Assembly: GCA_002699025.1 (NCBI GenBank)
Contig: PABA01000092.1
Coordinates: 1-54,571, forward strand
DNA length: 54,571 nt
Reading direction: 5' to 3'
DNA from: Sandaracinus sp.
Lineage (GTDB): Bacteria; Myxococcota_A; Polyangia; Polyangiales; Houyiibacteriaceae
This document shows, in pieces, positions 11,809-46,482 of the stretch (positions within the stretch are counted from its first letter, which is position 1; every line of letters starts with the position of its first letter). The notes beneath the pieces are model-generated. The model did not search any database, had not been told where the DNA came from, and was given only the letters and a program-made list of their open reading frames with translations. A program made the position numbers and the translations under genes.

Positions 11809-12098
11809 GACCGAGAGCAAAGGCGTCCTTCCACGAAAGCCAGGCCCTCGTCGCCGAGGATCGGGTCGGAGATGCGCGGGAGCGCCCCACGCTCAGGGGA
11901 GGTCGCCGGGACGCGGCTGAGCGCCAAGGCCAGCTGGTCCCGGTAAGCGCGGTCCGAGGCCGTCGCGCTATCCCGCTCTGCGAGCGTCGTCGCTTCGCGG
12001 AGGGCCTCGTCCAGCCGGTGGGCGTAGTGGAGCGCGCGCGCTAACAGTGGGCCTCGACGTCGGCCGGGTCGCGGCGGTGCGCCAGGGCCAGTCTTTGA
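11805..12098 (-). pseudogene. Remnant of a helical (TPR-like) protein C-terminus, frameshifted
   Basis: On the minus strand, two different frames read like natural helical protein. One ends LALAHRRDPADVEAHC at a TAG near 12050. The other, shifted by one base, continues LLARALHYAHRLDEALREA and runs to a TGA at 11805-11807 (ending FVEGRLCSRS). Joined by a frameshift they look like the tail of a TPR-type protein. This DNA also encodes, in a third frame, the unnatural Arg/Pro-rich C-terminus of the phosphatase gene. I infer a deletion or recombination that fused the two genes out of frame. Confidence 0.4.
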
Positions 12099-27163: not shown

Positions 27164-29869
27164 TCACTCTTCACTGTCGTCGGGAACATCTTCGGGCTGG
27201 AGGTCCTCGCCTGCGGGTTCTGGCTCGTCGCCGGTCGAGCTCTCGTCTTCACGGTCTTCGGATGCGACCGGCTGCCATGGGCGCTCCGTCTCGGCCATGA
27301 CGTCATCCCACCATTTGGGCATTGGAGGCGCGCATGCCCTTTCTACTGCCCCCGCCAGACGTTGAACCGACTTCTCCAGGCTGCCCGCCATGCGTCTGTT
27401 GATGCGATGACGAGTTAGGGCACCCCAAACCATCTCGACCCACTCCTGGTCCTCGGCGAGGCGCCGGGCTCCGCCGTGTCCCCTCTCGGCCGCGTCGACG
27501 AAGGTCTCCCAAACTCGGCGAGCGGCATCCCAGGCGGGCTGAGCGACTTCGACATCCTGAAGCACTTGCTTGAGTTGCTTCCTCAGGTCGGAATCGTGGA
27601 ACGGCCCGTCAGGATCAAGGAGCAGCTCGCGTTGGCGCTCGTAAGTCGTGTCCTTGGTCGTGAGTATCGTTCCCGCTGGCAGCATCTCGACTAGGCGGGC
27701 TGCGGCTTGGGGCTTGAGAATCTCACGTAGCGCTACGATGCAGGACTGTTGGGCTGGGTAGTCGAGTCCACCGTGGGTTCGCTGCTCCACCTCGTCCCAT
27801 AGGCGTAGCGAGAACTTGGGGGCAGCCCTGGCCATCTTCTGTAGTACAGCCCACTCCGCTTCATGGGCTGACCCATAAATTCCCCCGAAGTTGGCGAAGC
27901 GAAGCAGGCCGCCAAGCGCCATCTGGAAGAGATGTTGATCGCGCAGGCTGTCCGGCTCCATTTCTAGGAGTTTCATCCGGGCCTCCGACACGAGGACCGC
28001 TCTCCCAAGTAGTCGATCTTGCTCTGCGCGGGGAATGACATCTGCTGCCTCGGAGACAAGCAGCGCGCGGAGCTGGATGAGGGCACTCTGCATGTCCTGG
28101 GCGCTAGCACGAGCTACGTTCCCGCGAACGTCAAGCAGGTCTTGTAGTCCCGCCGCGGAGCCGATGACGTCGCGGAGGAGTCGAACGAGCTGCTGACGAG
28201 GTGATAGGCGCCCTGTCAGCAACCATTCCACATGGGAGCGGACGTCTCGAACATCGCTTCCGATGCCTTGAGCAAGTGCGTAGGCTTCTCCGCCTTCGGC
28301 TGACTCGGCCCACGGAGCATCGGGAAACGCCTTCTCCCCGCCCTCCTCCTCTTTGCCTCCGCGTGGACCGGTTACCATCTGACGAAAAGCCCCCGTCTGG
28401 AGGTCCGTCATCACAAGTTCGTTGCGAGCTACGAAGCTGAGCGACCCTTGCGCCCGAAACTCTAGGAGTAAGAGCGACAAGAGCAGAGTGGCGCTCATTC
28501 CCCCCGGGGCTTTCGTGATACTGACTGGCCACGACACCACTTGCGTGATGAAGCGTTTGCGCTCTCGCGGGGAACCCGGAAGCGCGCTTTGAAGGTCAAG
28601 GAGAGATGTCTCCAAGCTGGGTGCCCCAAGTTGCGTGAGAATCTGTCGGTCGAGTTCAGCTAGCTCAGTCGGGTGCGGCTCCGGGACACCTAGCTGGAGA
28701 TCAAAGATCTTCTGCAACAACCATTGAGCGTCGTCTTCGTCGACCTCGATGCGCGAGTCGTCAATCGCATACAAGTAGGAGATGCCCGGTGCATCAACTA
28801 CTTCGCGCGTGTCCACCAGCATGCGGAGCACAGTTGCCTTGCTGCATCTCTCTAGGTCGTCCACGAAGATGATTAGGCGACGATCTGGGCCGAGGCTCTC
28901 TCGGATACGGTCGGCGAGTTCGGCTTGACTAATTGCCAAGCGGGATTCTACGGGAAGACGGAAGCCTGAGACCCAGGAGTTTCCTCCGAGAACCCCTCTC
29001 AACCAGTCTCTCAGAACCGTGCGCTGCCTCGCGAACAAGCCAGAGTGGATGCTCTGGTGCACCAGAGCGTCATCGACCGTCGCCATGAGTGCCGAGAAGA
29101 GGTCCTCGCGGTTCTCGTGATGCCATGGGTCGAACCGTGCGAACAGATGGCCCTCCTTCTCAAGTCGCTCGCGGAGCAGGTTCGCGACGCTGGTCTTGCC
29201 CATTCCCACCTTGGCGAGCAGAGCAACCCGCGGGCAGCGAATGGTGGTACTGGTCAGGTAGGCCGCACAGCGCGTGACGAGCGCATCCCTTTGAAACAGG
29301 TCTTGGTCGATCGAAGAAATCGGCATGTCGACGTTGCCGACAGCGACCTGACGGTCATTCTCGACGGCCAGCCTGCTTGCGCCCCAGAAGGTTGCGGCGA
29401 TGACTGCCACCACGGCCGGGAACCACGACCCGCCACCGCCAACGAGTAGCAAGTAAGCGCCGAGAAAGATTGCCGCCCAGGCTAGAGCGGCGAGAGTGCG
29501 TGCGGGAGAGCGGAGGCTTCGGAGCCACGCACGAAGGCTGGGTGTCCCAACGACTACCAGGGTGGCCGCCAGTCCCAACCAGCCGGCGACGGGCACCTCC
29601 TGAGAAGCCCATGTGCATGCGCGTTGCGTCATGCTGCCTATCGACGCACGGAAGGTTGGGTGCGCACGTAGCAGCGATTGCAGGAAGACGGTAAGCCCCG
29701 CGAGGATGGCTCCCGCACGCCAACTGCGTTCGAGCACGGCCCGTGCGATCCTCACGAGTTCGCCAGCCTGCAAGGCCAGCTTGGCGCGGGTCCGGACGAC
29801 AGTAGCCTTACCGTCCGTTGCTCCGGCTTCACGCTCCTTCTCTTCGTCTGCCGGTGCTTCTGTCGTCAT
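27164..29869 (-). CDS. KAP-family P-loop NTPase with N-terminal membrane segments
   Basis: A protein of 901 residues. The N-terminal 170 residues hold up to four membrane helices (about 52-66, 95-110, 127-143, 149-164). Then comes the KAP NTPase core: LLAKVGMGKTSVANLL (Walker A, about 219-226, with Ala in place of the first Gly), FARFDPWHHENREDLF, and RRLIIFVDDLERCSKATVLR (Walker B and the KAP Asp-Asp-Leu-Glu-Arg-Cys motif). KAP NTPases are membrane-associated and several work in phage defence. The ATG overlaps the brxHI stop (ATGA), so it is the last gene of the BREX transcript. It is less GC-rich than brxHI and was probably acquired separately. It is not one of the standard type 2 BREX genes. 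Confidence 0.85.
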   Translation of the reverse strand: MTTEAPADEEKEREAGATDGKATVVRTRAKLALQAGELVRIARAVLERSWRAGAILAGLTVFLQSLLRAHPTFRASIGSMTQRACTWASQEVPVAGWLGLAATLVVVGTPSLRAWLRSLRSPARTLAALAWAAIFLGAYLLLVGGGGSWFPAVVAVIAATFWGASRLAVENDRQVAVGNVDMPISSIDQDLFQRDALVTRCAAYLTSTTIRCPRVALLAKVGMGKTSVANLLRERLEKEGHLFARFDPWHHENREDLFSALMATVDDALVHQSIHSGLFARQRTVLRDWLRGVLGGNSWVSGFRLPVESRLAISQAELADRIRESLGPDRRLIIFVDDLERCSKATVLRMLVDTREVVDAPGISYLYAIDDSRIEVDEDDAQWLLQKIFDLQLGVPEPHPTELAELDRQILTQLGAPSLETSLLDLQSALPGSPRERKRFITQVVSWPVSITKAPGGMSATLLLSLLLLEFRAQGSLSFVARNELVMTDLQTGAFRQMVTGPRGGKEEEGGEKAFPDAPWAESAEGGEAYALAQGIGSDVRDVRSHVEWLLTGRLSPRQQLVRLLRDVIGSAAGLQDLLDVRGNVARASAQDMQSALIQLRALLVSEAADVIPRAEQDRLLGRAVLVSEARMKLLEMEPDSLRDQHLFQMALGGLLRFANFGGIYGSAHEAEWAVLQKMARAAPKFSLRLWDEVEQRTHGGLDYPAQQSCIVALREILKPQAAARLVEMLPAGTILTTKDTTYERQRELLLDPDGPFHDSDLRKQLKQVLQDVEVAQPAWDAARRVWETFVDAAERGHGGARRLAEDQEWVEMVWGALTRHRINRRMAGSLEKSVQRLAGAVERACAPPMPKWWDDVMAETERPWQPVASEDREDESSTGDEPEPAGEDLQPEDVPDDSEE

Positions 29870-32535
29870 TCGACGGGCCGGTTGTCAGAGAACGTACTCC
29901 TGAGCCGCCACAGCACTTCGACATCGAGCGCCGCGTACTCCACCTGGGCGGAGTCGAGAGGCCGCCGTCGCCAGTCCGACGTCTGGCACCGCTTGTCGAT
30001 CACCAGATCGAGCTCCCGCCGCACGACGGCGAGCAGGCTGTGCCCCGCTGCGAGGGGTCCGTACTTTCGGCGCGACACGGTCAGCGTGTCGTAGATGTTC
30101 TCGATGCCGATGCCGAGCTTGCCGAGGACGGTCTTCTCGAACTGGGCGTTGTGGATGACCTTCTCGACCTTGTCGGACTCGAGGACGGCGGCGAGGGGGG
30201 CGAGGTCGCCGACGGTGAAGGGGTCGATGAGGTAGTTGGTCTCGGGGGTGCCGACCTGAGCGAGGCAGAGGCTCTGGTCGGTCAGGGTGGTCTCGACGTC
30301 GAGGGCGATGAAGGGCTCGGCGTGGAGCTTGTCGGCGATGGCGGCGAGCTCGTCGGGGCTGCGGACCCACTGGATGGGGTTCCGGGGCTTGGCGTACTCG
30401 AACTTGGTCGCGGTTTCGTCGACGTGGGGGTCGAGGCCGAGGATGACGCGGGCGGTGGCGAGGTCGACGGTCTTCCGGACGAGGAGGTCTCTCGCGAGGT
30501 GGTCCGGGAGGCAGGGCTGGAACTTGGAGACGCGGCTCTTGGTGGCGTCGGGGGCGAAGCGGAGGGCGTCGCTCCACGTGGGGCTGTCGGCCTCGCGGAG
30601 CTTCTCCATCGCTTGCTTGATGGCGACGAGGCTCTTGCCGCCGTCCTTGGTGAAGGTGAGCGAGGTGTTGCGGCTGATGACGCGGCCGCCCACTTCGCGC
30701 TCGAGGAGGCGGGCTAGGAGGAGGTTCGCGGCGCCCCCGGCGAAGTTGTGCCACGTGATCTGCTCGTCGTTGTCGTGGACGAACTCGTCGCCGTCGCGGA
30801 GGAAGTAGAACTCGGCGCGGAGCTGGGCGATGACCTTCTCAGCGCGCGCGGACCACTCGGTGTCCACCTCGTCGTCGAGGAGGATGTCGCGCATGGTTTG
30901 GCAGAGCTCGTAGCTGAGGTGCCGCGGGCTACCCGACCAGCGGGCGGCCTTGCCGGAGTCGGCGGGCTTCACGACGCATCGCCCTCGTCGCCAATCGATG
31001 TCGAGGACGAGCCAGTTGCGGCCGCCGAGGGTGAACGAGCTGGGCTCGTCGTCCTCCTCGAGGGATGCGAGGAAGGTTGCGTCGATGGTGCCGATCTCCT
31101 GGCTGGCGTGCCGGACGGTGATGAGCCGCGGCGCCTCGAAGACCGCGTAGAGGGCGCGGAAGTTGGCGCGGCCGTAGCTCTTCTCGCCCTTCTCCCCGAG
31201 CCACAGGCGCCCTTCGTGGTCCGTGAGGATGTCCTTGTGGAGCATGTGGTCGAGGAGGGTCTGTCGCTCCTCGTAGGTGAGGTCCTCGAAGGGAGCGGCG
31301 CCCTCGAGCCAGCCCCACCAGTCTTCACGCCCTACGCCGCCGGACTGAACGGCGAGCGACATGATCTGGTGAGCAAGGATGTGGCTTGCGCGGCGCGAGG
31401 GGCGAACGGGCTCCACGAAGCCGCGTTGGCGAAGGCGCTCGATGGCGGCTGCCTGGAGGAGGCGCTGGTCCCGGGTCGTCAGGAACGTGCAGTTGGCCGG
31501 CCCCATCTCGGCGCGCCGACCGGTGCGTCCCATGCGCTGGAGGTAACTGGCGACCGACGGTGGAGCGTCGATCTGGAGGACGTGGTGGAGGTCACCGACG
31601 TCGATGCCGAGCTCGAGCGCGCTGGTGGCGACGATGACGCAGTTCTCGCCCTGGGCGAATGCGGTCTCGGCGTCCCGGCGGGCCGTGACGGAGAGCGAGC
31701 CGTGCGAGACGAAGGCCATCACGCCGAGCTCGAGGAGCTTGGCGCCCAGCTCTTCTGCGCCGCGGCGGGAGTCGACGAAGACGAGGCGCTTCTTGCCCCG
31801 GTGCATCGCTTCGATGACCTGAGCGGCGTTCTCGACCGTGGCGACGTAGTCCAGCCTCACGACCGGCTCTACCTTGGCGCCCCCGGGATCGATGACGCGG
31901 CCCAGTCGCTCGGAGCCTCCGCGCAGCCAAGTGAGGATCTCGCCGGGGTTCCCGACGGTGGCCGAGAGGCCGATGCGCTGGACCTCGCGCCCGGCGAACC
32001 TTGAGAGCCGCTCGAGCACCGAGGCCAGATGCGCGCCTCGGTCGTCGTCGGCGAAGGCGTGGACCTCGTCGATGACCACGGCCCGTAGGCCGGTGAAGAG
32101 CTCCCGCGCCGAGACGCGAGGGCTCATCATCATCGCCTCGAGCGACTCGGGCGTGGTGAGCAGGAAGTCCGTCGGCTCGGCGAGGAAGGTCTTCCGTGCG
32201 CTGTCTCCGACGTCGCCGTGCCACTTGAACGCGCGGCGGCCGAGGAGCCCCGCGTAGCGCTGGACGCGGTCCTCCTGGTTGTTGAGGAGGGCGCGAATGG
32301 GCGAGAGGTAGAGGACGGAAACAGGGGTCCAGTCCTCATCGTTCATCCGCGAGAGCAGCGGGAAGAAGGCGGCCTCGGTCTTTCCACCCGCCGTGGGAGC
32401 GAGGACCACGCAGTCGTCGCCCTCGAGGATGGCCTCGATGGTCTGTTCCTGGACGGGGCGGAGGCTCGAGAACCCGAGGGTGTTGACGATTTGGTACTGG
32501 AGCGCGCCGCTCAGCCGGTCGAATCCCCCCGCCAT
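29866..32535 (-). CDS. brxHI: BREX type 2 helicase BrxHI with a 3'-5' exonuclease domain
   Basis: A protein of 889 residues from ATG 32535, 4 nt after the brxD stop; the longer open frame upstream is a shadow of brxD. Superfamily 2, Lhr-like helicase: Q-motif region RPVQEQTIEAIL, Walker A LAPTAGGKTEAA (about 45-55), DEVH box (VVIDEVHAFADDDRG), motif VI QRMGRTGRRAEMG. The last 150 residues form an RNase D-like DEDD exonuclease: FIALDVETTLTD, VIHNAQFEKTVLG, QVEYAALDVEVLW. The usual second Asp position in the HNAQFE block is Gln, which I note as a possible difference. In BREX-2 this helicase is needed or supportive for phage exclusion; it probably remodels or degrades invading DNA intermediates. 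Confidence 0.9.
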   Translation of the reverse strand: MAGGFDRLSGALQYQIVNTLGFSSLRPVQEQTIEAILEGDDCVVLAPTAGGKTEAAFFPLLSRMNDEDWTPVSVLYLSPIRALLNNQEDRVQRYAGLLGRRAFKWHGDVGDSARKTFLAEPTDFLLTTPESLEAMMMSPRVSARELFTGLRAVVIDEVHAFADDDRGAHLASVLERLSRFAGREVQRIGLSATVGNPGEILTWLRGGSERLGRVIDPGGAKVEPVVRLDYVATVENAAQVIEAMHRGKKRLVFVDSRRGAEELGAKLLELGVMAFVSHGSLSVTARRDAETAFAQGENCVIVATSALELGIDVGDLHHVLQIDAPPSVASYLQRMGRTGRRAEMGPANCTFLTTRDQRLLQAAAIERLRQRGFVEPVRPSRRASHILAHQIMSLAVQSGGVGREDWWGWLEGAAPFEDLTYEERQTLLDHMLHKDILTDHEGRLWLGEKGEKSYGRANFRALYAVFEAPRLITVRHASQEIGTIDATFLASLEEDDEPSSFTLGGRNWLVLDIDWRRGRCVVKPADSGKAARWSGSPRHLSYELCQTMRDILLDDEVDTEWSARAEKVIAQLRAEFYFLRDGDEFVHDNDEQITWHNFAGGAANLLLARLLEREVGGRVISRNTSLTFTKDGGKSLVAIKQAMEKLREADSPTWSDALRFAPDATKSRVSKFQPCLPDHLARDLLVRKTVDLATARVILGLDPHVDETATKFEYAKPRNPIQWVRSPDELAAIADKLHAEPFIALDVETTLTDQSLCLAQVGTPETNYLIDPFTVGDLAPLAAVLESDKVEKVIHNAQFEKTVLGKLGIGIENIYDTLTVSRRKYGPLAAGHSLLAVVRRELDLVIDKRCQTSDWRRRPLDSAQVEYAALDVEVLWRLRSTFSDNRPVE

Positions 32536-32539
32536 CGTC

Positions 32540-33895
32540 TCAGCCCAGGTCCTGCTCCCCGCGTGGGTCGTCGCTCTGTGAGAGGTCGAGGTCGATGTCG
32601 TCGAGGTCGACCGACGCTCCCGCGGCGGCACGCTCTTCTGGCGTGAGCTCCCCGGGCTGGACCACGAGCTTGTAGTCCTTGGCCGGCTCGAAGTCGGGGA
32701 ACTCGTCGACTCGGTCGACGAGATCGACGACGCGCTTGAGGAAGATGCGGGGGGCGATGCCGACCTTGCCCCCGAGCTGACCGGAGACACCCTCGGCGAG
32801 GCCCTTCAGCGTCGCGTCGTCGACCTTCGCCTGGATGCGGTCGGACGCCTCCGATGGGTAGAGGTCCCGAATCTGCTTCCCCACGACGATCATCTTCTCC
32901 ATGTCGAAAGGCTGGAGGCGGATCTGCGGCGCTCGGGAGCTGTCGAACTTGGGGTTGTCGCCGAACTCGGTGTGGAGGCGCTGAGCGAGCGGGGTGAGGC
33001 GCTTCACTCCCTGCGGGCCGTCGAAGAAGCCCGGGGTGCCGGTGATGAGCACGTAGAGGCCGGGGTAACGGTCGGCGACGAGGTCGTCGATGAGCTGGCG
33101 GAGCGCGTTGAGGCTCTTCTCCCGGCTGTCGGCGCGCACCCGCTGAATGGTCTCGACCTCGTCGAGCACGAGGACCAAGCCCTTGCGCCCGGTCTGCTTC
33201 AGCACCTCGAGCAGCCCGCGGAGGAAGCCTGCGGCGCCGTCGTGGTCGAGCTCGCCCTTCAAGTTCGCGGTGCGCTTGATGCCGGCACCCACGTTGGGCT
33301 GACCCATGAGCCACGCGACCAGACCCTCGGAGATGGCGTGGTCCTCCTTCACGCGCGCCGTGTGGCAGGCACGTAGCGCGGCCGCGAACTGCGGCTGGGT
33401 CTTGCTCACCTCGTGGAGGCGCTGCTCGAGAAGGTTGCCGACCGCCTTGGCCACGGCGTCGGCGCTCGTGACGTCGACGTGCCCGCTGCCGAGCACTTCT
33501 TCCTCGAGATTGAAGAACCAACGGTCGATGAGGCTGCGGAAGGCGCCGTCGGACCACTCCTTCGTCTGGAGCCCCTCCACCGCGCGGCGGTAGACGGTCT
33601 CCATCTTGTAGAGCGGCGTGTCGCGCTCTGAGATCTGCACCAGCGTCGTCGCGAAGCCGCGCTGGAGTGCTCGGTGCTCGAGCCATCGCGAGAAGAAGGT
33701 CTTGCCGGTCCCGTACTCGCCTCGGACGGCCTTGAACTTCCCTCGGCCGGCGGCGACCGCGTCGAGCTCCTCGTCGATGGCCTTCTCGAAGCGCTCGAGG
33801 CCCACGGCGAAGTGCTCAAGACCGCGACGCGGCACCGCACCGATTCGCAGTGCATCAACAATCTCCCTACGTCTGAGAGGACTGGGGGGGTCCAT
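32540..33895 (-). CDS. brxD: BREX ATP-binding protein BrxD
   Basis: A protein of 451 residues with the BREX ATP-binding domain (formerly DUF2791). Walker A is RGEYGTGKTFFSRWLEHRAL (about 58-70); Walker B is GLVLVLDEVETIQRV (about 245). A sensor-type segment LYVLITGTPGFFDGPQGVKRL follows, and the C-terminus is acidic (DLDDIDLDLSQSDD). The start PPSPLRRREIVDALRIGAVP is characteristic of BrxD. GAGGCGG lies just before the ATG. Such AAA-type ATPases probably act as DNA-loaded switches with the BrxHI helicase, whose gene starts 4 nt after this one stops. The length is normal for the family. Confidence 0.92.
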   Translation of the reverse strand: MDPPSPLRRREIVDALRIGAVPRRGLEHFAVGLERFEKAIDEELDAVAAGRGKFKAVRGEYGTGKTFFSRWLEHRALQRGFATTLVQISERDTPLYKMETVYRRAVEGLQTKEWSDGAFRSLIDRWFFNLEEEVLGSGHVDVTSADAVAKAVGNLLEQRLHEVSKTQPQFAAALRACHTARVKEDHAISEGLVAWLMGQPNVGAGIKRTANLKGELDHDGAAGFLRGLLEVLKQTGRKGLVLVLDEVETIQRVRADSREKSLNALRQLIDDLVADRYPGLYVLITGTPGFFDGPQGVKRLTPLAQRLHTEFGDNPKFDSSRAPQIRLQPFDMEKMIVVGKQIRDLYPSEASDRIQAKVDDATLKGLAEGVSGQLGGKVGIAPRIFLKRVVDLVDRVDEFPDFEPAKDYKLVVQPGELTPEERAAAGASVDLDDIDLDLSQSDDPRGEQDLG

Positions 33896-33922: not shown

Positions 33923-34429
33923 CTAGCGTTTCGGCGCCGTCTGGGGAGGCTGTAGTGTCCGCTTCGCCCACCGAAGCAGAGGGCCATCGTACAGGTGCCA
34001 CTGGCTCGACGTGGGCTCGAACTGCAGCGCAAGCACCCGCTCCGGCTCCGAGCTACCTTTCGCAGCGCCCAACGCGCCTCCGACCAGCATTCCCAGCAGA
34101 AGGCCGCCTAGCAGCCCTTCCTTCGTGTTCTGCGCCGCGCCGATGGCAGTTCCGACGACTGCTCCCAGGGCTGCCCCGTCCGCTGCCCCCGACGTTGTCG
34201 CCGCGGCTGGGCCAGCGAGCCGAAAGCGGGCGACCCCTTGGTCCGGAAAGACCTGAACATCGATCTTCCGCCGACCCGTCTGCACGAGGAAGCGGTTGGG
34301 GTGCTCGAGGACCCTTGCATCCAGGCCGTGTGCCCGCAGCTCTTCCACGTCATCGACGAAGGCATCTAGAGCCTCAAACCGACCCCGATGCTCCTCAAGC
34401 ACTGACGCGATGTCGCCTAGAGAGGGCAT
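33923..34429 (-). CDS. Glycine-zipper membrane protein, partner of the RelA/SpoT-like gene
   Basis: A protein of 168 residues starting 9 nt after the RelA/SpoT-like stop (AGGA 7 nt before the ATG). Residues 1-75 form a soluble alpha/beta domain (GDIASVLEEHRGRFEALDAF, then RRKIDVQVFPDQGVARFRL). Residues about 81-124 are two glycine-zipper helices (AALGAVVGTAIGAAQ and LLGGLLLGMLVGGALGAAKG) that would form a membrane hairpin. Residues 130-168 are again soluble. No named family. Its place directly after the nucleotidyltransferase gene suggests a two-gene unit, either effector and membrane partner or toxin and neutraliser. It is not a known BREX gene. Confidence 0.75.
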   Translation of the reverse strand: MPSLGDIASVLEEHRGRFEALDAFVDDVEELRAHGLDARVLEHPNRFLVQTGRRKIDVQVFPDQGVARFRLAGPAAATTSGAADGAALGAVVGTAIGAAQNTKEGLLGGLLLGMLVGGALGAAKGSSEPERVLALQFEPTSSQWHLYDGPLLRWAKRTLQPPQTAPKR

Positions 34430-34438
34430 GCCGTCATC

Positions 34439-35443
34439 CTAGGAGGCCTCGCCGGCCTGGGCTAGCGCTCGCACGGCCCGGCTCACAGGGCCCGGTTTTC
34501 CAGGCCAAGACTTCACGACTTTCTCGAACTCCGGGCCGAGGTCCTCCCAGAGAGCTGCCACCACCAGCACCGGGTCGTCTTCGTCCACCGATAGGCCCAC
34601 AACTCCAAGCCGTCTCGTCGCCGCTTCGATGTCATCGGGCCCGAGCGCGAGACGCTGAAGCTCAGCAGGCGTCACTTCCCGCAGGACCTTCTCAAGGAGC
34701 TCGAGGAGCCGAGCTAGGTCTCCGCGGAGGAAGCGGCCGGATCTTGCTCGCAGTGCGTACTGCAGGTCCTCCGGTGTCTCGATTCGGGAGAGGTTCTCCT
34801 GCCGGCGACGGTCTGTCTCTTCCATCAACTGGGCGACCGTGCCTCTCGTCGCATTCAGCTGAGTGCGAAGGACTCGAAGAAGACCGGTTTGAAGTTCGCT
34901 GGGATTCCCGTCTGGGGTCTTGTACTTGATATCGTGTTCGAGCTCGTTCCAGATATGGTCGCCGATGGTCACTACCTGGATCTCGCAGTAGACGCCATCG
35001 AGGTTCGCCAGTCTTGGATCCGCTGCCAGCATGTCAACGGATAGTTGAACGACCCGGTGGTGTGCCTGGTAGCCTTCCTGATTGTCGTGATGACGGCGAA
35101 ACCGATCACCATCAGGGACTACAAATAGGTCTTCGATTGTCTTGCACACCACGTCCGCATCCGCTGGTCGGTATAGGAGAGCCCGCACCCCGGCGAGATC
35201 GAGTACCGTTGGTCCAAACTCGCGCTCGAAGGACTTGAGTTCATACTTCTCCACGTTGCGCTCGAGCTTGCCGCGGAAGCTCTCCGGCGACTTTGCTCGG
35301 AAAGTCGGCACGTGGGGGACCGCTGCGTCGCGGAGGGCGGCCGAGAGGTGTCGAGACGCGGTAGACGCCATCTTCTCGAACCGATCCCTCTCCCGGGCGT
35401 ACCGCTCCACGAGTGTGGAGATCTGAAGCTCAGTCAGTGGCAT
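34439..35443 (-). CDS. RelA/SpoT-domain nucleotidyltransferase inside the BREX operon
   Basis: A protein of 334 residues. Residues about 45-180 are a RelA/SpoT synthetase domain: RAKSPESFRGKLERN (Arg49, Lys51, ATP-binding), LDLAGVRALLY (Asp82-x2-Gly-x-Arg, metal-binding Asp), GYQAHHRVVQL (Tyr125 and His128, the G-loop, with Ala where Ser is usual), and CEIQVVTIGDHIWNELEHDIKYK (Glu154, Trp165, Glu167/169, His170). The residues needed for pyrophosphate transfer appear present. There is no hydrolase (HD), TGS or ACT domain; the C-terminal 150 residues are helical and unassigned. It could make (p)ppGpp-type alarmones, or act as a toxic small alarmone synthetase that modifies nucleotides or tRNA. 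It starts 12 nt after pglZ and is visibly less GC-rich than pglZ, which points to acquisition as a cassette. Confidence 0.88.
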   Translation of the reverse strand: MPLTELQISTLVERYARERDRFEKMASTASRHLSAALRDAAVPHVPTFRAKSPESFRGKLERNVEKYELKSFEREFGPTVLDLAGVRALLYRPADADVVCKTIEDLFVVPDGDRFRRHHDNQEGYQAHHRVVQLSVDMLAADPRLANLDGVYCEIQVVTIGDHIWNELEHDIKYKTPDGNPSELQTGLLRVLRTQLNATRGTVAQLMEETDRRRQENLSRIETPEDLQYALRARSGRFLRGDLARLLELLEKVLREVTPAELQRLALGPDDIEAATRRLGVVGLSVDEDDPVLVVAALWEDLGPEFEKVVKSWPGKPGPVSRAVRALAQAGEAS

Positions 35444-35455
35444 GAGCCTTCTCCA

Positions 35456-38266
35456 TCACAGCTTCACCTCGAAGAGCTGGGCCAGCTTCTCACGGTCGAG
35501 ATGGACCTGGCGGGCCGCCGGGTCGTATCGGACCACCTCGTAGCCATCGAGGTTGAGGACCTCCTGGAGCTTGGAGATGAAGCCGCCGACGCGGAAGGGG
35601 AGCACCTTCATCTCCGCGGCGAAGGCGCTGGCGGACATCACGCCCTGGCGGGCGAGCAGGGTCTCGACCGCGACGACCACCTCGGCGCGCGCGGCGGCCG
35701 CGGGGACCCGCGCCGCGAGGACATCGGAGCTCGAGAACGCGCTGAGCGGCGCGGGCGGGATGGTCTTCGGCTTCTTTGGCGCGATCGGGAGCCCGAGCTG
35801 GCGGTCGTCCTTGGGCTTCTTCGGCTTCTTGGGCGGCTCGGGGGCCACCTCCGCGTCGAGGTCCACGACCTCCTCGCGAACGTCAAAGTGCCACCAGCGA
35901 GGCACGAAGGCCGCGCGGACCCCGAGGCCGTCGTCGTTGCTGAGGCTCGCGGTGGCGCTCTCCTCGCAACCCACGATCAGGCACGGCGCGACGACTTCGG
36001 CGAGGGTGGCGCCGCCGTGCTCACCTGCGTGGGTGTTGCCGGCGTAGGCGCTGGCGTCGTCGGAGAGCAGGACGATGCCGTGCGCGCCCTTGGGCGTGTA
36101 GACCTTGCTGCCCACGAAGGCGACCTCGTTGTCAGCTACCGGCGAGTCAGCCTTGGGCAGCGGCCGCCAGCGCGTGCCTCCCCCGGACTTCTTGGCTCCG
36201 GGGTGCGGGTCCTTCACGCGCTCGATCCGGTCCGCGGGGACGTGTCCGTGGTCGCTGGCCAGCAGCACGGCGCGACCGTGCTCACGAGCCTTCTCGAGGA
36301 GGTCCGGCAGCGACGCGATGCTCTCGACGCGCCACGGGTGGCGGACGGCGTGGCTCGCCTTGAGGCTGTCGTCGATGGCGTTGACGACCATCGCGACGAC
36401 GCGACGGCTCGGGTCCCCGACGAGCGAGAGCGCCTCCTGCGATGCGCTTCCTCCCTTGGTGTGCCCCTCGCTCCGAAGGAGCAGTCGAGGTGTGTCGGTT
36501 CCTTCGGCGTACTTCTTCACCGCGGAGTTGGCGGCCCACTTGTCGGGATCTTTCGAGGTGTCCAAGCGTGAGCCCGGCTTCATGAGCTTGCCCGCAAAGA
36601 AGGCGGAACGGCTCACCTCGGTGACCGTTGGAAGGCCGGCGAACACCACCGGATAGAGTGCCTCGCCGACGCGGCCCGCCTTGGTCGAGTGCCAGGCGAG
36701 CGGGCCCCACGGGGCGGCTCGGCTCCCAAGTGACTCGAGGAGCTCTACGGCCTGCGCCCAGGCCATGCCGTCCATCAGGAGGACAAGCAGCCGACGCTCG
36801 GGCTCCTCGTCGAGGAACTTCGTGGCCAGGCGCTGGACTGCATTCTGGATCGGGAGGACCTGGTGGGACGGGAGCCCGGCCTCGACCCATCCGACCAGGC
36901 TCTTGGCGAATCGCCGGTCGAGCTCGACGCGCGCTTCGTCCGCCGCGCGAACGATTGCCTGGACGCCCTTGGTGAGCTTCGAGTCCGCGGTGCCGCGAGC
37001 CCAGCGGCGGGCCCAGTCCACGTAGCCGCCTTGCTCGGCGTACCAGCGGCCGAGCTCTTCGGCGTCGCCGTAGGGCGTGGGGCTCGGCTCGAGCGCCTGG
37101 TCCGGGCGAGCGACGAGCCAGGCGAGCAGGCGGACCGCCATCTCGGCGCGCTGGAGCGGCTGCCGCTGCTCCTCGTCCTTGAAGCAGACGTGACCCTCGA
37201 GCGCCCGGAGCGCCTGCGTGGCCTCCTCGAGCAGCTCGGCGTTCGGCTCGCTGGACGCGCGCAGCAGCACATCGCCGACAGCGTCGAGCCGCTGAGCCCA
37301 GGCAGCCGGGAGCCGCGTGCTCTCGATCAGCGCCGCGCGGACCTCTTCGTCCTTCACGCGGTCGTCGGCGGCCTTCGCGATGCTTCGCGCGTCGGGCGCT
37401 CCGGCGCTCCGCTCTACGTAGCGAAGCGCGCTCGGAGCTTCTCGTCCCAGGCTCCTCGCAACCTCGAGCACCTTTGCCTCGTCCTCGACCCCAAGGACCT
37501 CTCGGACCCGCGTCTTGACCCACATGCGCACAGCCGCGAGGGGGCTCTCGGCGAGGGTCTCGAAGAGTATGGCCAGCTCGAGGACCGTGGCTCCCCGGCT
37601 CTCTTCCCACGCCGCCCAGATGATAGGCCCCGTTGGACCCGTCCTAACGGACAGATGCTCTATGAGCGCGTCCCGGACTCCCCGGGCCTCTTCGGCCTTC
37701 ATGGCCTCGGCGAAACGCGCCCCTCGCTTGTCGACGGCGGCCCAACCGAGGAGGGTGTCGAGCGCCAGCCCGCCTTCGGTGGGCACGGACCAGTCTCTCG
37801 CGAGCCAGGTGTCCCACATCGCGTCGGCGGTGAGCCGACTGTCGCCAATCGGATAGCGGCCGGTGTTGCCGGGGCGCAGGAGGTAGCCGACGAGCGGGGA
37901 TCGGAGAGCGTCTCCCTCGACTTCGCCCACGGCGAAGAGGTGCCGAAGGCGCGCGTCCTTGCCGATCCTTCGGACCCGGCCGTTGAGGGCGAAGCGGCCG
38001 GAGATGTCGAGCGGGATGTCGTCCGTCCACGGGACGAGGAAGGCCATGCGGACGTCATCCTCGGCCAGGTCCGGCAGGCGCTCGCGTAGCTCGAGCTCGC
38101 TCCGGACGGGCACGACGTGGAAGTCGCCCACGTTGGCGAGCTTGAGCATCTGCTCGTCGCCGGTGCCGAAGTAGGCGAAGAGGTGGTGCTGGCGCTTGCG
38201 CCGATACGCCTCTTCGAGATCGGCGCGCAGGTCGTGCGCGTTCAGGTGCGGGACGCCCTCCATCAT
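35456..38266 (-). CDS. pglZ: BREX type 2 alkaline-phosphatase-fold protein PglZ
   Basis: A protein of 936 residues, the usual size of type 2 PglZ. The start overlaps the pglY stop (ATGA; an adjacent second ATG at 38263 is also possible). The N-terminal third is the PglZ-specific region (RMAFLVPWTDDIPLDISGRF). The alkaline-phosphatase-like PglZ domain has RRLLVLLMDGMAWAQAVELL (metal-binding Asp, about residue 495), FAGLPTVTEVSRSAFFAGKL, and AVLLASDHGHVPADRIE (Asp-His-Gly-His, about residue 670). The C-terminal 100 residues form a winged-helix-like end (SASAFAAEMKVLPFRVGGFI). PglZ is a core BREX protein required for defence and DNA modification; a phosphodiesterase or nuclease activity is reported for relatives. 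Confidence 0.93.
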   Translation of the reverse strand: MMEGVPHLNAHDLRADLEEAYRRKRQHHLFAYFGTGDEQMLKLANVGDFHVVPVRSELELRERLPDLAEDDVRMAFLVPWTDDIPLDISGRFALNGRVRRIGKDARLRHLFAVGEVEGDALRSPLVGYLLRPGNTGRYPIGDSRLTADAMWDTWLARDWSVPTEGGLALDTLLGWAAVDKRGARFAEAMKAEEARGVRDALIEHLSVRTGPTGPIIWAAWEESRGATVLELAILFETLAESPLAAVRMWVKTRVREVLGVEDEAKVLEVARSLGREAPSALRYVERSAGAPDARSIAKAADDRVKDEEVRAALIESTRLPAAWAQRLDAVGDVLLRASSEPNAELLEEATQALRALEGHVCFKDEEQRQPLQRAEMAVRLLAWLVARPDQALEPSPTPYGDAEELGRWYAEQGGYVDWARRWARGTADSKLTKGVQAIVRAADEARVELDRRFAKSLVGWVEAGLPSHQVLPIQNAVQRLATKFLDEEPERRLLVLLMDGMAWAQAVELLESLGSRAAPWGPLAWHSTKAGRVGEALYPVVFAGLPTVTEVSRSAFFAGKLMKPGSRLDTSKDPDKWAANSAVKKYAEGTDTPRLLLRSEGHTKGGSASQEALSLVGDPSRRVVAMVVNAIDDSLKASHAVRHPWRVESIASLPDLLEKAREHGRAVLLASDHGHVPADRIERVKDPHPGAKKSGGGTRWRPLPKADSPVADNEVAFVGSKVYTPKGAHGIVLLSDDASAYAGNTHAGEHGGATLAEVVAPCLIVGCEESATASLSNDDGLGVRAAFVPRWWHFDVREEVVDLDAEVAPEPPKKPKKPKDDRQLGLPIAPKKPKTIPPAPLSAFSSSDVLAARVPAAAARAEVVVAVETLLARQGVMSASAFAAEMKVLPFRVGGFISKLQEVLNLDGYEVVRYDPAARQVHLDREKLAQLFEVKL

Positions 38267-41200
38267 TTCTTGCCCGGCCCCTTGTTCCCAGGCGCAGTGA
38301 TCCGAATCTGGCCGGTCATCGTGACCTCGTCGCCCTCGCCTTCGAGCGTCTCCCGGACCTTCGCGAGCGCCGACTCGAGGTGTGCGATGACTTCGGCCTT
38401 CCCCTGCCGATGAAGCGAGCCCTCGAAGACGACCCGACCCGGCGGCGGCGGCGGGTTGAGGATACGCTGCGCTTCCTCGGCAAGACCGCGCAGGCGGTCC
38501 GCGGCGGCCTGGTTGAGCTCGTCCTGGCGCAGCACGCCCGAGACCTTGTCGAGGAGCTCCGTCACGCCCTCGAGCTCAGTCTGTCGACCCTTGAGCTGGT
38601 CGAACGCACCGAACACGAGCGCGTCATCGAGCACGTTCGCGACCTGGGCCGCGCTCCCGATGCTGGCGCCGACCGCGCGCGCGCTCGTCTTGGCCTCGAA
38701 GCCGGCCAGGAACTCGACCTGGGCCTTGCCGTTCTTGCCCTGGAGGCCGGCGCACATCGCGTCGGCCGACTCCGCCGTCGTGACGCGGTCGACGTCGGTG
38801 TCGAGATCGAGCTGGCCGAGGCGCTGCTTCAGCAAACCAGGGAGCTTGGTGCAGTCGGCGACCTTCGCCTTGAGCATCTTGGCGAGCTCGGACTCGAAGC
38901 GCTTGAGGTTGTCGGCGTGGAGCGCGTTCCCCATGTTCGGGAGCCCGAACGCGGTCCCGGCAAGCTGCTTGGCCGCGAGCCAGTCCTGGTGCGTCGGCAG
39001 GTCCGGCTTCTCGAGGACGATATAGTCGGGGATGGGCTTGCCCGCGACGGGCGCAAACGCCTGGTCTCCGCTCACGAACGTTCGAGCGGACCAACGGGCA
39101 TAGCAGCGGACAACGAGGTCCAACGCCTCCGGCTGGAGCCCCATTCGGCCACTCTCATCGATCCAGCGGCGCACCTCGCCGACCTCCGGTCGCTCGGCGG
39201 ACTTCTGCTGCCGCTTCTTCTCGAGCTCCTGAAGGGTCTGGTCTTGGAGCAGGTGGACGGCGGTCTCGGTCACGCGGACGAGCCCCAGCTCCCCCAGCGT
39301 CCCGCGCATCTCTTCGCCGAGGTTCTTGTCGGCAGGGATGCGCTTTTCATCCGAGTCGATGATGTCGCCGAAGCGCGCGATCAGGTTCTTCTGCCGGGCC
39401 GTGGTGAGCTTCTTCGTGAAGCGGGGATGTCGGGGATAGCGCGCCTCGAGGAGCGCCGGGATGTAGCTGTCGAGCGCAGTGGCAAGGTTCGCAGCCAGCG
39501 AGGTCTGCACCTTGGCGCCCGGCTTGAGCACGACGAGGTGGTTCTCGACGGACTGCCCCGTGTCGAGGTCGCCCTCCTTCGGCTGCGTGAGCCCGTAGGC
39601 TTGGCCGAGCGCCTGGAGGATGCGCGACTGCTTCTGCGTCCGCAGATTCGCGAGGTCGTTCTGTGCCCGGACCTGGTTCTCGACGCTGAGGTGCGAGACG
39701 TACCCCTTCGTGACGCTCGCGCTCTCCAGGATGTGGTCGAGGATGACGAGCTCCCCCAGCATCTGGTTGATGGAGTGGGAGAAGAAGCTCGGGAGCCACA
39801 CCAACGTCCACGAGCCGCCCGTCTCTTCCTTGAACTTCTCGAGGACCTCTTCGTCGTGGTGGGGCCCGAAGTTCGGCTCGTCGAATGGGTAATCGACGAT
39901 CAGGCGCCAGTCGTGCCCCTCGGGGCACCGGAGCGCCTCAGGGCCCATCTTCCGCACGTTGCCGAAGCGGATGTGTCCGAGGCGGTCGGTTCCGCGCCAG
40001 TCCTTGTACTTGTGGTCCCTGCCCCAGTCCGCGATGGACTCGACGCCCATGGCCTCGAAGAGGAGGTCCCGGAGCACTCGCTGCCGGGCGCCCGGGCCGT
40101 CGACGTGACGTGCCTGCTCGAGGATCGGCTCGAGCTCGACGCCCTCGAGCTGTAGGCGGACCGTCGGGTCGGCCTGGGACCCGACGTGGAGCTGTCCGAT
40201 CTGGCTGGCCCAGTTCCGCAGCTTCTGCGCGACGAGGTTCGCTTCGGTACCAGGGATCGGGACGCGAAGGGAGCCGTGGTTGAGCTGCACCAACTTGGCC
40301 GCCGTCATGTCCTTGAGAGCCGACACCTCCGGGACGAGCGACGCGATGATGAGCGTCTTCACCATCCGGTTGTCGGTACGGCACGCGGTGCGCTCGCAGT
40401 TACTGCACCCGAGCCGTGCGGGATGGTCAGGCCGCAGGCGCTGGCACTTCTCCGGCGTGTTGGTCTCGTGCTGTTCCTGAAGGACCGGCAGGAAGCGGTA
40501 GGTGTACATCTGCTTCGCCGACTCGAAGCGCGACTTCATCACACCGTCGGCGGTGTCCTCGCCGCCGGCGAGCACGTCGTAGAGGTCACCCACCCCGACG
40601 ACGCCGCCGAGCGAGAGGTCCTCGATGTGTTCGACCAGGATCTCGGTGAGCAGCTTGATCGCCGTCCGCTCGCGCTGGAGCGAGTTCGACAGAGCCACCA
40701 GCGCCTCGACCAGCGCCGGGCTGAAGGGGTAGAGCCGCCGGAAGTCCGCGGCGTCGAGATGGCCGAGCATGGTCTTCCACGCTGGATCGGCCGCCCCTTT
40801 TCTCATCTTGTCGAACGCCTGGTCGAGGGTGGCCTTCGCCTCGTCGCTCGCCGGCTTGAGCACGCGCTTCTCTGCGATGGCAGGGAGGTTCCGGTCCTCG
40901 AGGGTGATCGTCTCGTAGCGACCCTCGGACCACTGGAGCGAATCCCGCACCAGCTTGTTCTCGAGGCCCATGTAGTCCTCGCCTACCATCTCGGCGAGGT
41001 CGCGCTGGCGAGCGATGAAGCTAACGAATGGGATGTCGCGGTGCGACTCCTGCGCCTCGACCAGCTTCACCATCTTCTGCACCTCGTTATGGAACCACTC
41101 CACGTTCGAGGCGCGCGACGCGAGCCAGAGGATGAGCTCGTCGAGGAAGAGGACGATGCCGTCGTAGCCGAGCTCCTTGGCGTGACGGCCCACGATGCCG

Positions 41201-41940
41201 AGGCCCGAGTCCAGGTCGAGAAACTGCCGCTTCGTCTCCGCGTATGCCTTGAACCGGGTCTTCACGAGCGCGCTGAAGAGCTCCTCACGCACCTTCGGAT
41301 CGCTCGACTCGGTCGCCGCGTCGAAACGCTCCCGGTCCCAGCCGCGCTTGGCGAACTTGCGCCATTTCGCCTGCTTGCTGGAGCCGCCCCCGGCCAGCTC
41401 GTTCATCGGCCCGAAGAAGGCATCGTCGCCGAGCTCCTCGAGCATCTGCCTCGCGTCTGCGAAGAGCTGCTCGTCAGCGAAGAGGCCGGGAACCGTCGCC
41501 TCGTCGTGGTGCTCGCGGACATGGGCGATGTACCGGAGGAAGATGGCCTCCTCGATGCTCTCGTGTCCCACCATGTGGAAGTGGAGCTTCAGCAGCTTCT
41601 TTTCGCCCACCCAGTCAAACGGGGCGCGAAGCGGGTGGAGCTCCGGGATGCGCCAGACGTCTTCGTTGGCGTCGAGCATCAGTGACAGCAGCGCCATGAA
41701 GTGCGACTTGCCGCTCCCGAAGCTGCCGTGAAGGAAGGTGGCCTGGCTTCGGTTCTGTTGCAGCGACGTGTCGACGAGCTTGAGCGCCTTCTCGAAGGCG
41801 TCGCGGATTGGCGGGGTGACGACGTAGGTCGACGCGGTCTGCTTCGGCTGCTCGATCGCCTGGCTGAGGACCTCGACGAAGCCGATCTTGTGGATGCTCT
41901 CCGGCAGGTCGAAGAGCGGCTTCACGCGCTGCTCGCTCAT
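38263..41940 (-). CDS. pglY: BREX type 2 ATPase PglY
   Basis: A protein of 1225 residues. The start [20 protein letters not shown] and FLHGSFGSGKSHFMALLSLM (Walker A, 72-79) are characteristic of PglY, the BrxC-type P-loop ATPase of type 2 BREX. Walker B is DGIVLFLDELILWLAS (Asp267-Glu268). A cysteine cluster CSNCERTAC around residues 525-535 may bind zinc. The C-terminal third has long helices. Its ATG overlaps the pglX stop (ATGA), and its stop overlaps pglZ. It likely assembles with PglX and PglZ into the DNA-bound BREX complex. The length is normal and no motif appears damaged. Confidence 0.93.
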   Translation of the reverse strand: MSEQRVKPLFDLPESIHKIGFVEVLSQAIEQPKQTASTYVVTPPIRDAFEKALKLVDTSLQQNRSQATFLHGSFGSGKSHFMALLSLMLDANEDVWRIPELHPLRAPFDWVGEKKLLKLHFHMVGHESIEEAIFLRYIAHVREHHDEATVPGLFADEQLFADARQMLEELGDDAFFGPMNELAGGGSSKQAKWRKFAKRGWDRERFDAATESSDPKVREELFSALVKTRFKAYAETKRQFLDLDSGLGIVGRHAKELGYDGIVLFLDELILWLASRASNVEWFHNEVQKMVKLVEAQESHRDIPFVSFIARQRDLAEMVGEDYMGLENKLVRDSLQWSEGRYETITLEDRNLPAIAEKRVLKPASDEAKATLDQAFDKMRKGAADPAWKTMLGHLDAADFRRLYPFSPALVEALVALSNSLQRERTAIKLLTEILVEHIEDLSLGGVVGVGDLYDVLAGGEDTADGVMKSRFESAKQMYTYRFLPVLQEQHETNTPEKCQRLRPDHPARLGCSNCERTACRTDNRMVKTLIIASLVPEVSALKDMTAAKLVQLNHGSLRVPIPGTEANLVAQKLRNWASQIGQLHVGSQADPTVRLQLEGVELEPILEQARHVDGPGARQRVLRDLLFEAMGVESIADWGRDHKYKDWRGTDRLGHIRFGNVRKMGPEALRCPEGHDWRLIVDYPFDEPNFGPHHDEEVLEKFKEETGGSWTLVWLPSFFSHSINQMLGELVILDHILESASVTKGYVSHLSVENQVRAQNDLANLRTQKQSRILQALGQAYGLTQPKEGDLDTGQSVENHLVVLKPGAKVQTSLAANLATALDSYIPALLEARYPRHPRFTKKLTTARQKNLIARFGDIIDSDEKRIPADKNLGEEMRGTLGELGLVRVTETAVHLLQDQTLQELEKKRQQKSAERPEVGEVRRWIDESGRMGLQPEALDLVVRCYARWSARTFVSGDQAFAPVAGKPIPDYIVLEKPDLPTHQDWLAAKQLAGTAFGLPNMGNALHADNLKRFESELAKMLKAKVADCTKLPGLLKQRLGQLDLDTDVDRVTTAESADAMCAGLQGKNGKAQVEFLAGFEAKTSARAVGASIGSAAQVANVLDDALVFGAFDQLKGRQTELEGVTELLDKVSGVLRQDELNQAAADRLRGLAEEAQRILNPPPPPGRVVFEGSLHRQGKAEVIAHLESALAKVRETLEGEGDEVTMTGQIRITAPGNKGPGKK

Positions 41941-44900
41941 TGGTCAGCCTTCTTGCTCTTCTTCGAGGACTTTTTACGGCCTCGCTTCGTCTTCTCCGGC
42001 GGGCGCCATGCTTTCAGGTCGTCGTGCGTCAGGCCGAGGGCCTGGCACTCGCCGTCGACGAAGCTCCGATAGTACTCGGCCGGCGAGACGCCCCCGTAGT
42101 CCTCGGACGGTTTGTCGTGCCAGAGCTCGAGCCAGAACTGGAGTTCGAGGAGCCCGGCGAGCATCGGGGTCAGGCGGTCCCGTTCCCAGCCCTCGTTGGT
42201 CTTGCGGTCGTAGTAGAGCGTGGCGAGGGCCTTGGCGCGCTGCTGATGGTCCAGCCCTGCCCAGCAGTACGCCGCCTTTCGGTCTTCGTCGGACTCGCAG
42301 CCCGGGTAGGAGACGAAGCGCTCTCTCGGAACGTCGAGCTTGCCGCGCAGCCGCCAGGTACTCCCCGAGCGCATGTCCTTGGGCGAGTACTTCGGCGTTC
42401 GGGGGGTGGCGGACCGGCCCTCGGCCTGGCTCCGCCAGAGCGCCTCCCACTCACGCCGCTTCTCGAGGCCCTTTCCGGTGTAGCGGTGGGCAGCTAGGAA
42501 GGGCGCAGCCTGTGTAGCCAGCACCTCCGCGATCTGGAGTCCGCCGAACTGCTCAGCCAGCTCCAGAAGCTCGACCACCCGACTGTCCTCGCGAAGCCTC
42601 CGCTCCACGTCCGATTCGCTGAGAACGAGTGATTGCTCCCCCGCTAGTTCCGCTTCGGCTGCTTGCTCAAGAACCAATCGGAGGGCCGCGGCGATCTCGG
42701 CGTCGTAGTCAGTCGCGCGCCACCAACGCTTGAAGTCAGGCCGCTCGACGGCCGCGAGCAGGTCTGATCCGCCTATGGCAGCAATGCGCTGTGCCTGGAG
42801 CCTTCCCGGACGCACGCCATCTGGGGGGCTCGCTCCGGTGCGTTCAAACCACGTTGCGTCTGGTCCCTCACCCATGGTCCGCTGCCACAAGAGATGCTCA
42901 AACGTCCGTCGCCCAGCGATATCATCGGCACTCGGGCCCGGCGCGAGCCCATCGTCGCAGAGGCCGAAGAGCCGATAGCACGTCCAATCGACGCACTCTT
43001 GGAGCCGAACGAGCTCCGAGAAGGCTGCCGCCTCGTCTTGCCGAGCTGTGTTGAGGACCTCCGCAAGTGGCCCGTCGAGCTCGCCCGCGAACCAACGCTC
43101 AGCGACACGCGCAGGCGTCGCAGCGTCGCGACATTCTGCGGCTTGCAGAAGGGCAGAACCCAAGTTGGCCAGAACCTCCCACCCCTCGGGGAGGGGCATA
43201 GGAAGAAGCGCGCGCCCAGCAAACTGGTAGCGGTCAGCCCAAGTGGTCGCCGATAGCCTGCCACCGTCACCCATCTGGTCGCCACCCATTGGATAGGAAA
43301 CCTGCTTCATCCAGAAGCAGGAGATGGAGCTGTTCAAGAAGCAGGACAGGGCAGCGTACTGGTCTTCTGAGCAGCCAGGCGGCAGCTTTATTACTGGAGC
43401 CGACTGGTTGAAGACCCGCTGGCCCCGGTCCACGACGAAGTGATTTCGGCTTGACACGAAGGCATAGGCGATGCTGGTAGGCACACTTCGTTTCGACTTG
43501 TAAAAACTCCGGTACTCAAACCACTCAAGCCCCGCCTCGAGGGTTGTCTTGCCGAACTGTCTTCGCCTCTCGAGCACTGTCTTGTAACGCCAGAAGTGCC
43601 GCCGGGTGGGCTCGTGTTCCGGAAGGGCGGGCTCGAGAAAATCGTCATATGGAAAAAGTACTGACGCCGAGTGGCGAATGTTCCAGTTTCGGACATTCTC
43701 GCCAATCCCAAGCATTCGAGTGTACTTGGGTGGTACACCGAGTCGCGCAAGCCAGTCGGGGGGACCGTAGTACAGGTCGTCCTCGCCCATGATCGCGTCG
43801 AAACCGATGGCGGTCGCCAGATCGCCCAGCGACTCTCGCGCCTCGGCCTCGATATGGGCCTTGAGTTCTAGTGCGCCCCCTCCGCTCAAGCTCCACGGGT
43901 GCGCCGCAAGAAGTTCGCGGTCGCAGTCTGCGACGGACACGAACTCATCGACGTAGCCCGGAGATGACCAGTGTTCCACGATGCTCGACCAGACCAACCC
44001 GCGCGACGGATCGACGGGCTCCGCGGGTTCGCCCCCCTCCGACAAGACCAATCGCACCGTTGCGCTGCGAGGGGGCTCATTGCTGCCGAACATCATCAGC
44101 GTCGGCGTGCCGTGGCCAGGAATGTAGGCTCCCGCGGTACTCACGAGCAGCTCGAGGTTCACCGTCGACAGAAATGATTCAATCAAGCTCTTTCCGAACT
44201 CTCTCTTCATGAAGGAGTTCGCAGTAATCTGCCCAACTAGACCGCCGGGTCTCGCGAGATGAAAGAAGCGCTCACAGAAGGGCGCCGACAGCGCGTATTT
44301 ACCGGAGGCGCTAACGTAGAGCTCGCGATACCGGTCACGGAGAACCCGGTCCTTTGGCGTAATGTAGGGAGGGTTTCCGACGACGGCAGCACACCGGCGG
44401 TGAAGCACTTGCCGTGCCTGCGCCTCTTCCTCCAGTGCGAAGACCTTCCGATCCCAGTCAACAACCCGAGCGTCGCTCTGATGGAACAGGGCGCCCTGCT
44501 CGTGCTGCGGGTTGTACAGGAGCGAGTCGGCGACCGCGACGTGGAGTGGAAGCTTCGGAGCCGCGCTGATCTTGTCGAACGCTGCCTTGCCCAGGAACGA
44601 GAGCGTGAGCCGGAACTTGGCGATCGCGACCGCGAAGGGGTTGATGTCGGCGCCATACACCTTGTCGAGCGCCTCGGCCGCCGCCTCCCGAGCGCTCAGC
44701 CCAGGCTTCGCGCGCTGCACGTGCTCGAAGAAGCGGTCGAACGCGCCGAGCAGGAAGTGCCCGCTGCCGCAGGTCGGATCGATGAGGTCGGCGTCGTCGA
44801 GGCCGAACTTCTCGATCGCCGGCTCGAGCGTTCGGTCGAGGATGAACGCCTCGATGAAGTCCGGCGTCTGGAGCAGCGCGTAGCGCTTGCGGACGTTCTC

Positions 44901-45512: not shown

Positions 45513-45520
45513 CGTTCTGC

Positions 45521-46474: not shown

Positions 46475-46482
46475 GGCGATTC

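Follow-up and report, generated by a model that had tools for sequence, protein, structure and literature searches.

What place do a RelA/SpoT-fold pyrophosphokinase and a small glycine-zipper protein have in the middle of a BREX-2 operon? The window, by which we mean the whole stretch of 54,571 nucleotides from Sandaracinus sp. that was analysed, carries on its reverse strand the genes of PglW (46483..51300, 1131 bits) and, by family matches, of PglX of the BREX-2 type (41937..45632), PglY/BrxC (38263..41940), PglZ (35456..38266) and BrxD (32540..33895), together with that of the BrxHI helicase, for which the longest frame (29866..32790) overlaps brxD and the true start is probably further in. 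These genes mark the operon as BREX-2, and they surround two others on the same strand. The pyrophosphokinase gene (34439..35443, 334 residues), here called RSH, begins 12 nucleotides after the stop of its upstream neighbour pglZ; the gene of the partner protein, GZ (33923..34429, 168 residues), follows after 9 nucleotides, and brxD, its downstream neighbour, after a further 27. The preliminary description of this DNA had named a 334-residue RelA/SpoT synthetase and a 168-residue protein with a glycine-zipper hairpin, spaced by 9-27 nucleotides inside a BREX operon between pglZ and brxD, and the lengths, positions, domains and spacing were all borne out. A 4.9-kb MAG contig (L003 1-4874, run ERR599081) has the same PglZ-RSH-GZ-BrxD stretch, with an RSH 100% identical to that of the window.

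The same operon holds other features of note. A 3'-5' exonuclease domain (PF01612, residues 806-967, E 2.3e-29) lies at the C-terminus of BrxHI, and the end of brxHI overlaps by 4 nucleotides the gene of a PifA-like KAP-family P-loop protein (27164-29869, reverse strand). A 331-residue frame (45521-46516, reverse strand) overlaps both pglW and pglX; it has no family match, and its third-position GC is low, as is that of RSH.

Both RSH and GZ had been described as poorer in GC than the core genes. This is true of RSH overall (61.6%, against 64.6% for PglX and 66.4% for PglY) and of the third codon positions of both genes (0.70 for RSH and 0.73 for GZ, against 0.78-0.91 for PglX, PglY, PglZ, BrxD and BrxHI), but not of GZ overall (66.5%). 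Chance open reading frames are ruled out as an explanation of the two genes, since RSH is conserved in nine genomes and GZ in eight, with a fragment in a further one (G401). PADLOC gave a weak match to PDC-S33 (22 bits), a name that we did not find in the literature searched.

The window RSH belongs to the RelA/SpoT homologue superfamily by its domain, its predicted fold and its ATP, Mg and acceptor-loop residues. The Pfam family RelA_SpoT matches residues 49-176 (34916..35299, reverse strand) at E 3.5e-11, with 43.8 bits against a cut-off of 27, and no other Pfam family matches RSH at E 1 or better. This synthetase core includes R49, K51, S55, K59, R62, D82, Y125, E154, H170 and K175, whose roles are assigned by analogy with FaRel2; the accessible part of the FaRel2 study (PMC11782079) identifies residues binding ATP, Mg and the acceptor, for which the first eight of these RSH residues are the counterparts. 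Among the nine members of the RSH clade described below, R49, K51, K59, D82, Y125 and E154 are retained in eight. Position 55 is more variable, with aspartate in four of nine members and glutamate in G577, and Arg62 varies in four of nine (lysine in two). The G577 protein (L151 8766-9872) lacks catalytic residues (K59T, Y125A, H129R, H170S, K175R) beside an intact GZ frame and is possibly a pseudoenzyme, judging from these substitutions; the G187 protein retains 14 of 14 checked residues.

In its AlphaFold2 model (mean pLDDT 92), RSH most closely resembles RelQ (Z 18.3 over 184 residues, 2.8 A) and RelP, with lower scores for the Rel/RelA synthetase domains (Z about 11 to 15), CapRel (12.7), Tas1 (10.3) and FaRel2 (7.9). 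A profile built from 12 RSHs, half of which lie outside the clade, ranks the families likewise, with 70-76 bits for RelP/RelQ and 23 bits for CapRel. In the tree, which predates and omits G435, G491 and G577, RSH falls outside three Clostridia-type SAS rows, while the place of CapRel, a long branch, is unsure. The preliminary description had invoked small alarmone synthetases of the toxSAS/CapRel type; as RSH is nearer RelQ/RelP than CapRel/FaRel2 by sequence and by predicted structure, that label has not been earned. Like the CapRel/toxSAS enzymes (FaRel2, PhRel, FaRel), RSH is an RSH-fold pyrophosphokinase with most of the catalytic residues and a small neighbour gene, where some of those have a fused domain; it differs from them in the weaker match, in having a glycine-zipper partner, and in that one member was found with no partner. 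With RelQ and RelP, its best matches among small alarmone synthetases, it shares the core fold and active site, whereas it has about 120 residues of helical C-terminal region past the matched stretch, some members in defence operons, and a branch apart from the Clostridia SAS rows. The C-terminal region (residues 183-333, 34445..34897, reverse strand) is all-helical and lies mostly beyond the structure-matched stretch 4-210 of the model; since the matches barely reach residues 211-334, we claim no new fold there. The modelled fold does not tell GTP, ATP and tRNA apart as acceptors.

A housekeeping enzyme is ruled out for RSH, as the source genome has another RelA_SpoT match, of 147 bits, within a 726-residue frame on a different contig, and with the place of RSH in the tree outside the Clostridia-type SAS rows this also answers the concern, raised at the outset, that RSH might group with housekeeping synthetases. 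Some exported alarmone synthetases, even makers of (p)ppGpp, inhibit growth if kept in the cytoplasm, according to the accessible text of PMC12691689, which leaves room for an effector role of a RelQ-like enzyme.

The partner has fewer points of comparison. GZ has a weak match to the Pfam family Gly-zipper_Omp (E 3.6e-4, below the curated cut-off), and seven overlapping GxxxGxxxG motifs that lie within two hydrophobic segments (residues 81-99 and 105-123) of the glycine-zipper hairpin (residues 81-123, 34061..34189, reverse strand). Its model, of low confidence (mean pLDDT 49.6), has two helices and three strands ahead of the unmodelled hairpin, with two strands and a helix after it, and on this model GZ would be a soluble alpha/beta domain into which the zipper hairpin is inserted. 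Across eight aligned rows, R68, G109, G117, W144, Y147, G149 and W154 are invariant. Profile and fold searches against solved structures gave no convincing relative, and we found no existing name for the family.

As a two-gene module of the RSH superfamily, RSH and GZ are real and recur. The RSH clade comprises nine genomes of one phylum, and GZ lies directly downstream of RSH in eight of them, always in the order RSH then GZ (8 of 8), so that the pair is not, as had been considered a possible outcome, confined to this locus. The searches behind this count ran in both directions. A two-row GZ alignment against 377 genomes of the phylum gave five strong matches, among them the window, and in each RSH lies immediately upstream; weak matches to the zipper only, in G308 and G271 (E 5e-4 and 8e-4), were left out. 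An RSH alignment against the same 377 genomes gave 24 genomes at E 1e-10 or better, six of which stand apart with scores of at least 381 bits, the next best having 124 bits. Samples of the order (183 genomes) and class (317) added three members with GZ immediately behind RSH, G435, G491 and G577 (262-284 bits), and an eight-row GZ alignment found seven of the 317 class genomes, six with RSH in front and the seventh, G401, with GZ at the start of a contig. The three samples overlap, and as only 4 to 11 first-look candidates were scored per genome in these searches, misses are possible. GZ had no match among plasmids, and no match of the RSH or GZ alignments to viral contigs was confirmed. A RelA/SpoT-like protein is encoded as a cargo gene in a filamentous Vibrio phage (L010 6571-7581).

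Spacing and divergence also describe a pair. In the six of eight cases with both ends clear, the RSH and GZ frames are -14, -4, -4, 3, 7 and 9 nucleotides apart; the start of GZ is unsure in G491 (an 8-nucleotide overlap or a 112-nucleotide gap), and in G165 the RSH frame continues past the start of GZ, its end seemingly frame-shifted, with a run of N within GZ. Distances between RSHs correlate with those between GZs (r 0.63 over 7 pairs, equalled or exceeded in 84 of 5040 permutations), G165 being left out of this comparison for its partial GZ. The exception to the pairing is G187, of the same family as the window and another genus, which has RSH at the same site between PglZ and BrxD and in which no GZ was found either in the slot or, among the 150 scored of 161 candidates (best E 0.3), elsewhere. 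A catalytically complete RSH with no GZ found speaks against an indispensable neutralising role of GZ, and just as much against GZ being the sole effector; an obligatory antitoxin is correspondingly weakened as a candidate role.

The genomic contexts of the clade fall into three groups. Two members, those of the window and G187, occupy the BREX-2 slot; two others (G085 and MAG.78) lie beside type I restriction genes; five have neither. In G085, hsdR, hsdM and hsdS are followed by a 394-residue gene with no convincing family and then by RSH-GZ. In MAG.78, one contig has RSH-GZ and then directly hsdM, while a second has hsdR and hsdS and ends within the first RSH residues, and only inference ties the two together. 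The MAG.78 RSH is split across the two contig ends, which share inverted similarity at 22 of 29 positions (as high in 0 of 500 shuffles); this similarity suggests an insertion element within the gene. Between hsdS and the RSH fragment of this genome lies a DUF4258/DUF2283 pair (L007 7841-8388). Around the remaining members (G366, G165, G435, G491 and G577), neither the window's BREX core nor the MAG.78 hsdR, hsdM and hsdS has a homologue in stretches of 5.8 to 20 kb, weak kinase-region matches to PglW excepted, and with five of nine members so placed the tie to restriction is not obligatory. Leaving aside the two BREX members, two of seven contexts are restriction contexts, for which we estimate a chance probability of 0.002-0.008 at an assumed rate of 1-2% of the genome. 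The pair therefore recurs, as the preliminary description had asked, inside BREX-2, beside type I genes and apart from both.

More distant relatives have settings of their own. In the tree, sister RSHs join the clade in a 10-row group with 100/99 support. Behind a sister RSH on a Rhizobium plasmid (L011 8001-16156) come a sigma-factor-like gene, then PbeA (826 bits) and a PbeC/DndD-like gene; a second Rhizobium plasmid (L012 8001-16158) has the same annotated order and different upstream flanks, PADLOC having been applied to L011 only. The sister RSH in G211 is flanked by two tyrosine integrases, with an AbiJ-like gene beside it. Of the others, one Rhizobium copy is near DNA-polymerase genes and that of G335 near genes with no assignment. 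RSHs more distant still have mixed contexts and were left out of the counts.

The two BREX-2 members allow the history of the slot to be considered. Between the window and G187 operons, PglY, PglZ, BrxD and BrxHI are 89-95% identical in protein sequence, with dS of 0.51-0.71, whereas the two RSHs are 61% identical, with a dS of 2.05 and a dN/dS of 0.17. Fast evolution of RSH in place is ruled out as the sole cause, because its silent sites, too, approach saturation (pS 0.70). With a dS so far above that of its four neighbours, RSH has not been carried along with the operon since the split and has been exchanged or inserted separately; from this one genome pair, it appears to be exchanged as a cassette in the BREX-2 slot, under purifying selection. 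Divergence in that operon is not confined to RSH, as PglX is only 71% identical over the 129-residue end that is all of it in the G187 stretch, and PglX may have been exchanged as well. The G187 operon also has a second embedded pair, between PglX and PglY (L054 449-2445), which combines an AAA_21/HEC-01A-like ATPase with a DUF4276/HEC-01B-like protein and resembles backup modules of the PARIS type.

RSH and GZ are not constant components of BREX-2. We surveyed 61 BrxD matches above cut-off, examining 41 (39 in addition to the window and G187), and resolved the PglZ-BrxD slot in 22, the window included; L108 could not be resolved, and 18 had no PglZ match in the examined stretch. Counting a slot as empty if BrxD homology starts no more than 20 nucleotides past the PglZ stop, 19 of the 22 are empty (four of these, L123, L127, L135 and L139, being only distantly similar), two hold RSH, and one, L109, holds a 6-kb insert (7133-13122) that encodes a helicase-like AAA protein along with a Schlafen AlbA_2 protein and an AAA_21 protein, the gene of the last having a small gene with no Pfam match behind it. 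The slot is on these counts an occasional landing place for accessory genes.

We give roughly an even chance to the explanation that RSH-GZ is a mobile accessory module which DNA-modification defence operons have taken up as a second layer, and a defence role for the module is likely. In its favour are the pairing and the correlated distances, the BREX-2 and type I contexts, the sister copies beside Pbe genes or integrases and AbiJ, the divergence of RSH within the slot and the retained catalytic residues. Against it count the five members with neither BREX nor type I genes, the sister copies near DNA-polymerase or unassigned genes, the G187 RSH with no GZ found, the damaged RSHs of G577 and MAG.78, the aspartate at position 55, the divergent PglX, and the fact that the window was picked because it is in BREX. 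RSH would act as a cytosolic pyrophosphokinase, released or triggered on infection or when host restriction is inhibited, which would transfer the pyrophosphate of ATP onto the 3'-OH of either a nucleotide or a tRNA and in this way halt growth. GZ, encoded tightly behind it, would be an alpha/beta protein with a membrane-inserting hairpin, most likely tethering and controlling RSH as a sensor or brake, or acting beside it as a co-effector, rather than serving as an indispensable antitoxin. The available part of PMC12839542 describes BREX operons that carry backup effectors, in support of the second-layer reading. The interpretation first proposed for this DNA is partly supported overall, its suicidal action and its trigger on BREX failure being conjectural; it had left the membrane protein as effector, sensor or neutraliser, and of these roles an indispensable neutraliser has become unlikely, given the complete RSH of G187 and no GZ found there.

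Three other explanations bear on the same observations. RSH and GZ might be a type II toxin-antitoxin system, with RSH as a toxSAS-like toxin and GZ as a membrane-anchored antitoxin, serving as an addiction module or guard in the BREX and type I operons too. The recurrent tandem pair, its overlapping or close frames and its horizontal exchange would all be expected of such a system, the accessible part of PMC12691689 describes cognate antitoxins of toxSAS enzymes, and in both G577 and MAG.78 the damage falls on RSH while GZ stays open. The G187 RSH, complete with no GZ, and the closeness of RSH to RelQ/RelP rather than CapRel/FaRel2 stand against it, and we consider this explanation rather unlikely, if worth keeping in mind. 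An alarmone-gated membrane immune pair, in which RSH would make a 3'-pyrophosphorylated nucleotide on infection and the split soluble domain of GZ would sense it, the hairpin then breaching or blocking the membrane, could plug into BREX-2 and type I settings alike. CBASS and Pycsar pairs are a working parallel for a synthase with a membrane effector; a RelA/SpoT synthetase with a membrane effector as a nucleotide-signalling defence pair would, if true, be the first known to us, and we found none in the literature searched. Synthase-first order and tight spacing, a zipper hairpin within the predicted soluble domain of GZ, and synthetase residues retained in most members fit such a pair, but G187 has the synthase with no partner, the hairpin in G085 is a short one of weak hydrophobicity (best 19-residue mean 1.05), and the GZ model is of low confidence, so that this proposal seems to us improbable.

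Least of all do we favour the notion that RSH is a non-toxic alarmone synthetase tuning host physiology, in the operon through chance insertion. Its nearest solved structures are indeed RelQ and RelP, and five of nine members lack a neighbouring BREX or type I homologue, but the genome already has a long RSH, one slot has held two RSHs of different age, and sister copies adjoin Pbe genes in one case and integrases and AbiJ in another; we regard it as very improbable.

An extra effector gene among core BREX genes is not in itself without precedent, as the part of PMC12839542 available to us describes PARIS-like, HEPN and Schlafen backup effectors so placed; these are nucleases, unlike RSH, and the main text of that paper makes no mention of alarmones, ppGpp or SpoT or, as whole words, of RelA, toxSAS, CapRel or synthetase. 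In our literature search, which covered titles and the starts of abstracts and had most subscription papers outside it, no BREX or restriction operon with an alarmone synthetase or toxSAS was found. Within type I operons, the PrrC and RloC anticodon nucleases are a second, host-directed layer of a different enzyme class from RSH. If the module reading is true, RSH-GZ would extend the second layer of restriction systems to the pyrophosphorylation of nucleotides or tRNA. One operon type offers a natural comparison, among RSH with GZ, RSH alone and the empty slot, and with its few, defined members the GZ family lends itself to the study of how a zipper hairpin may control or serve an RSH enzyme.
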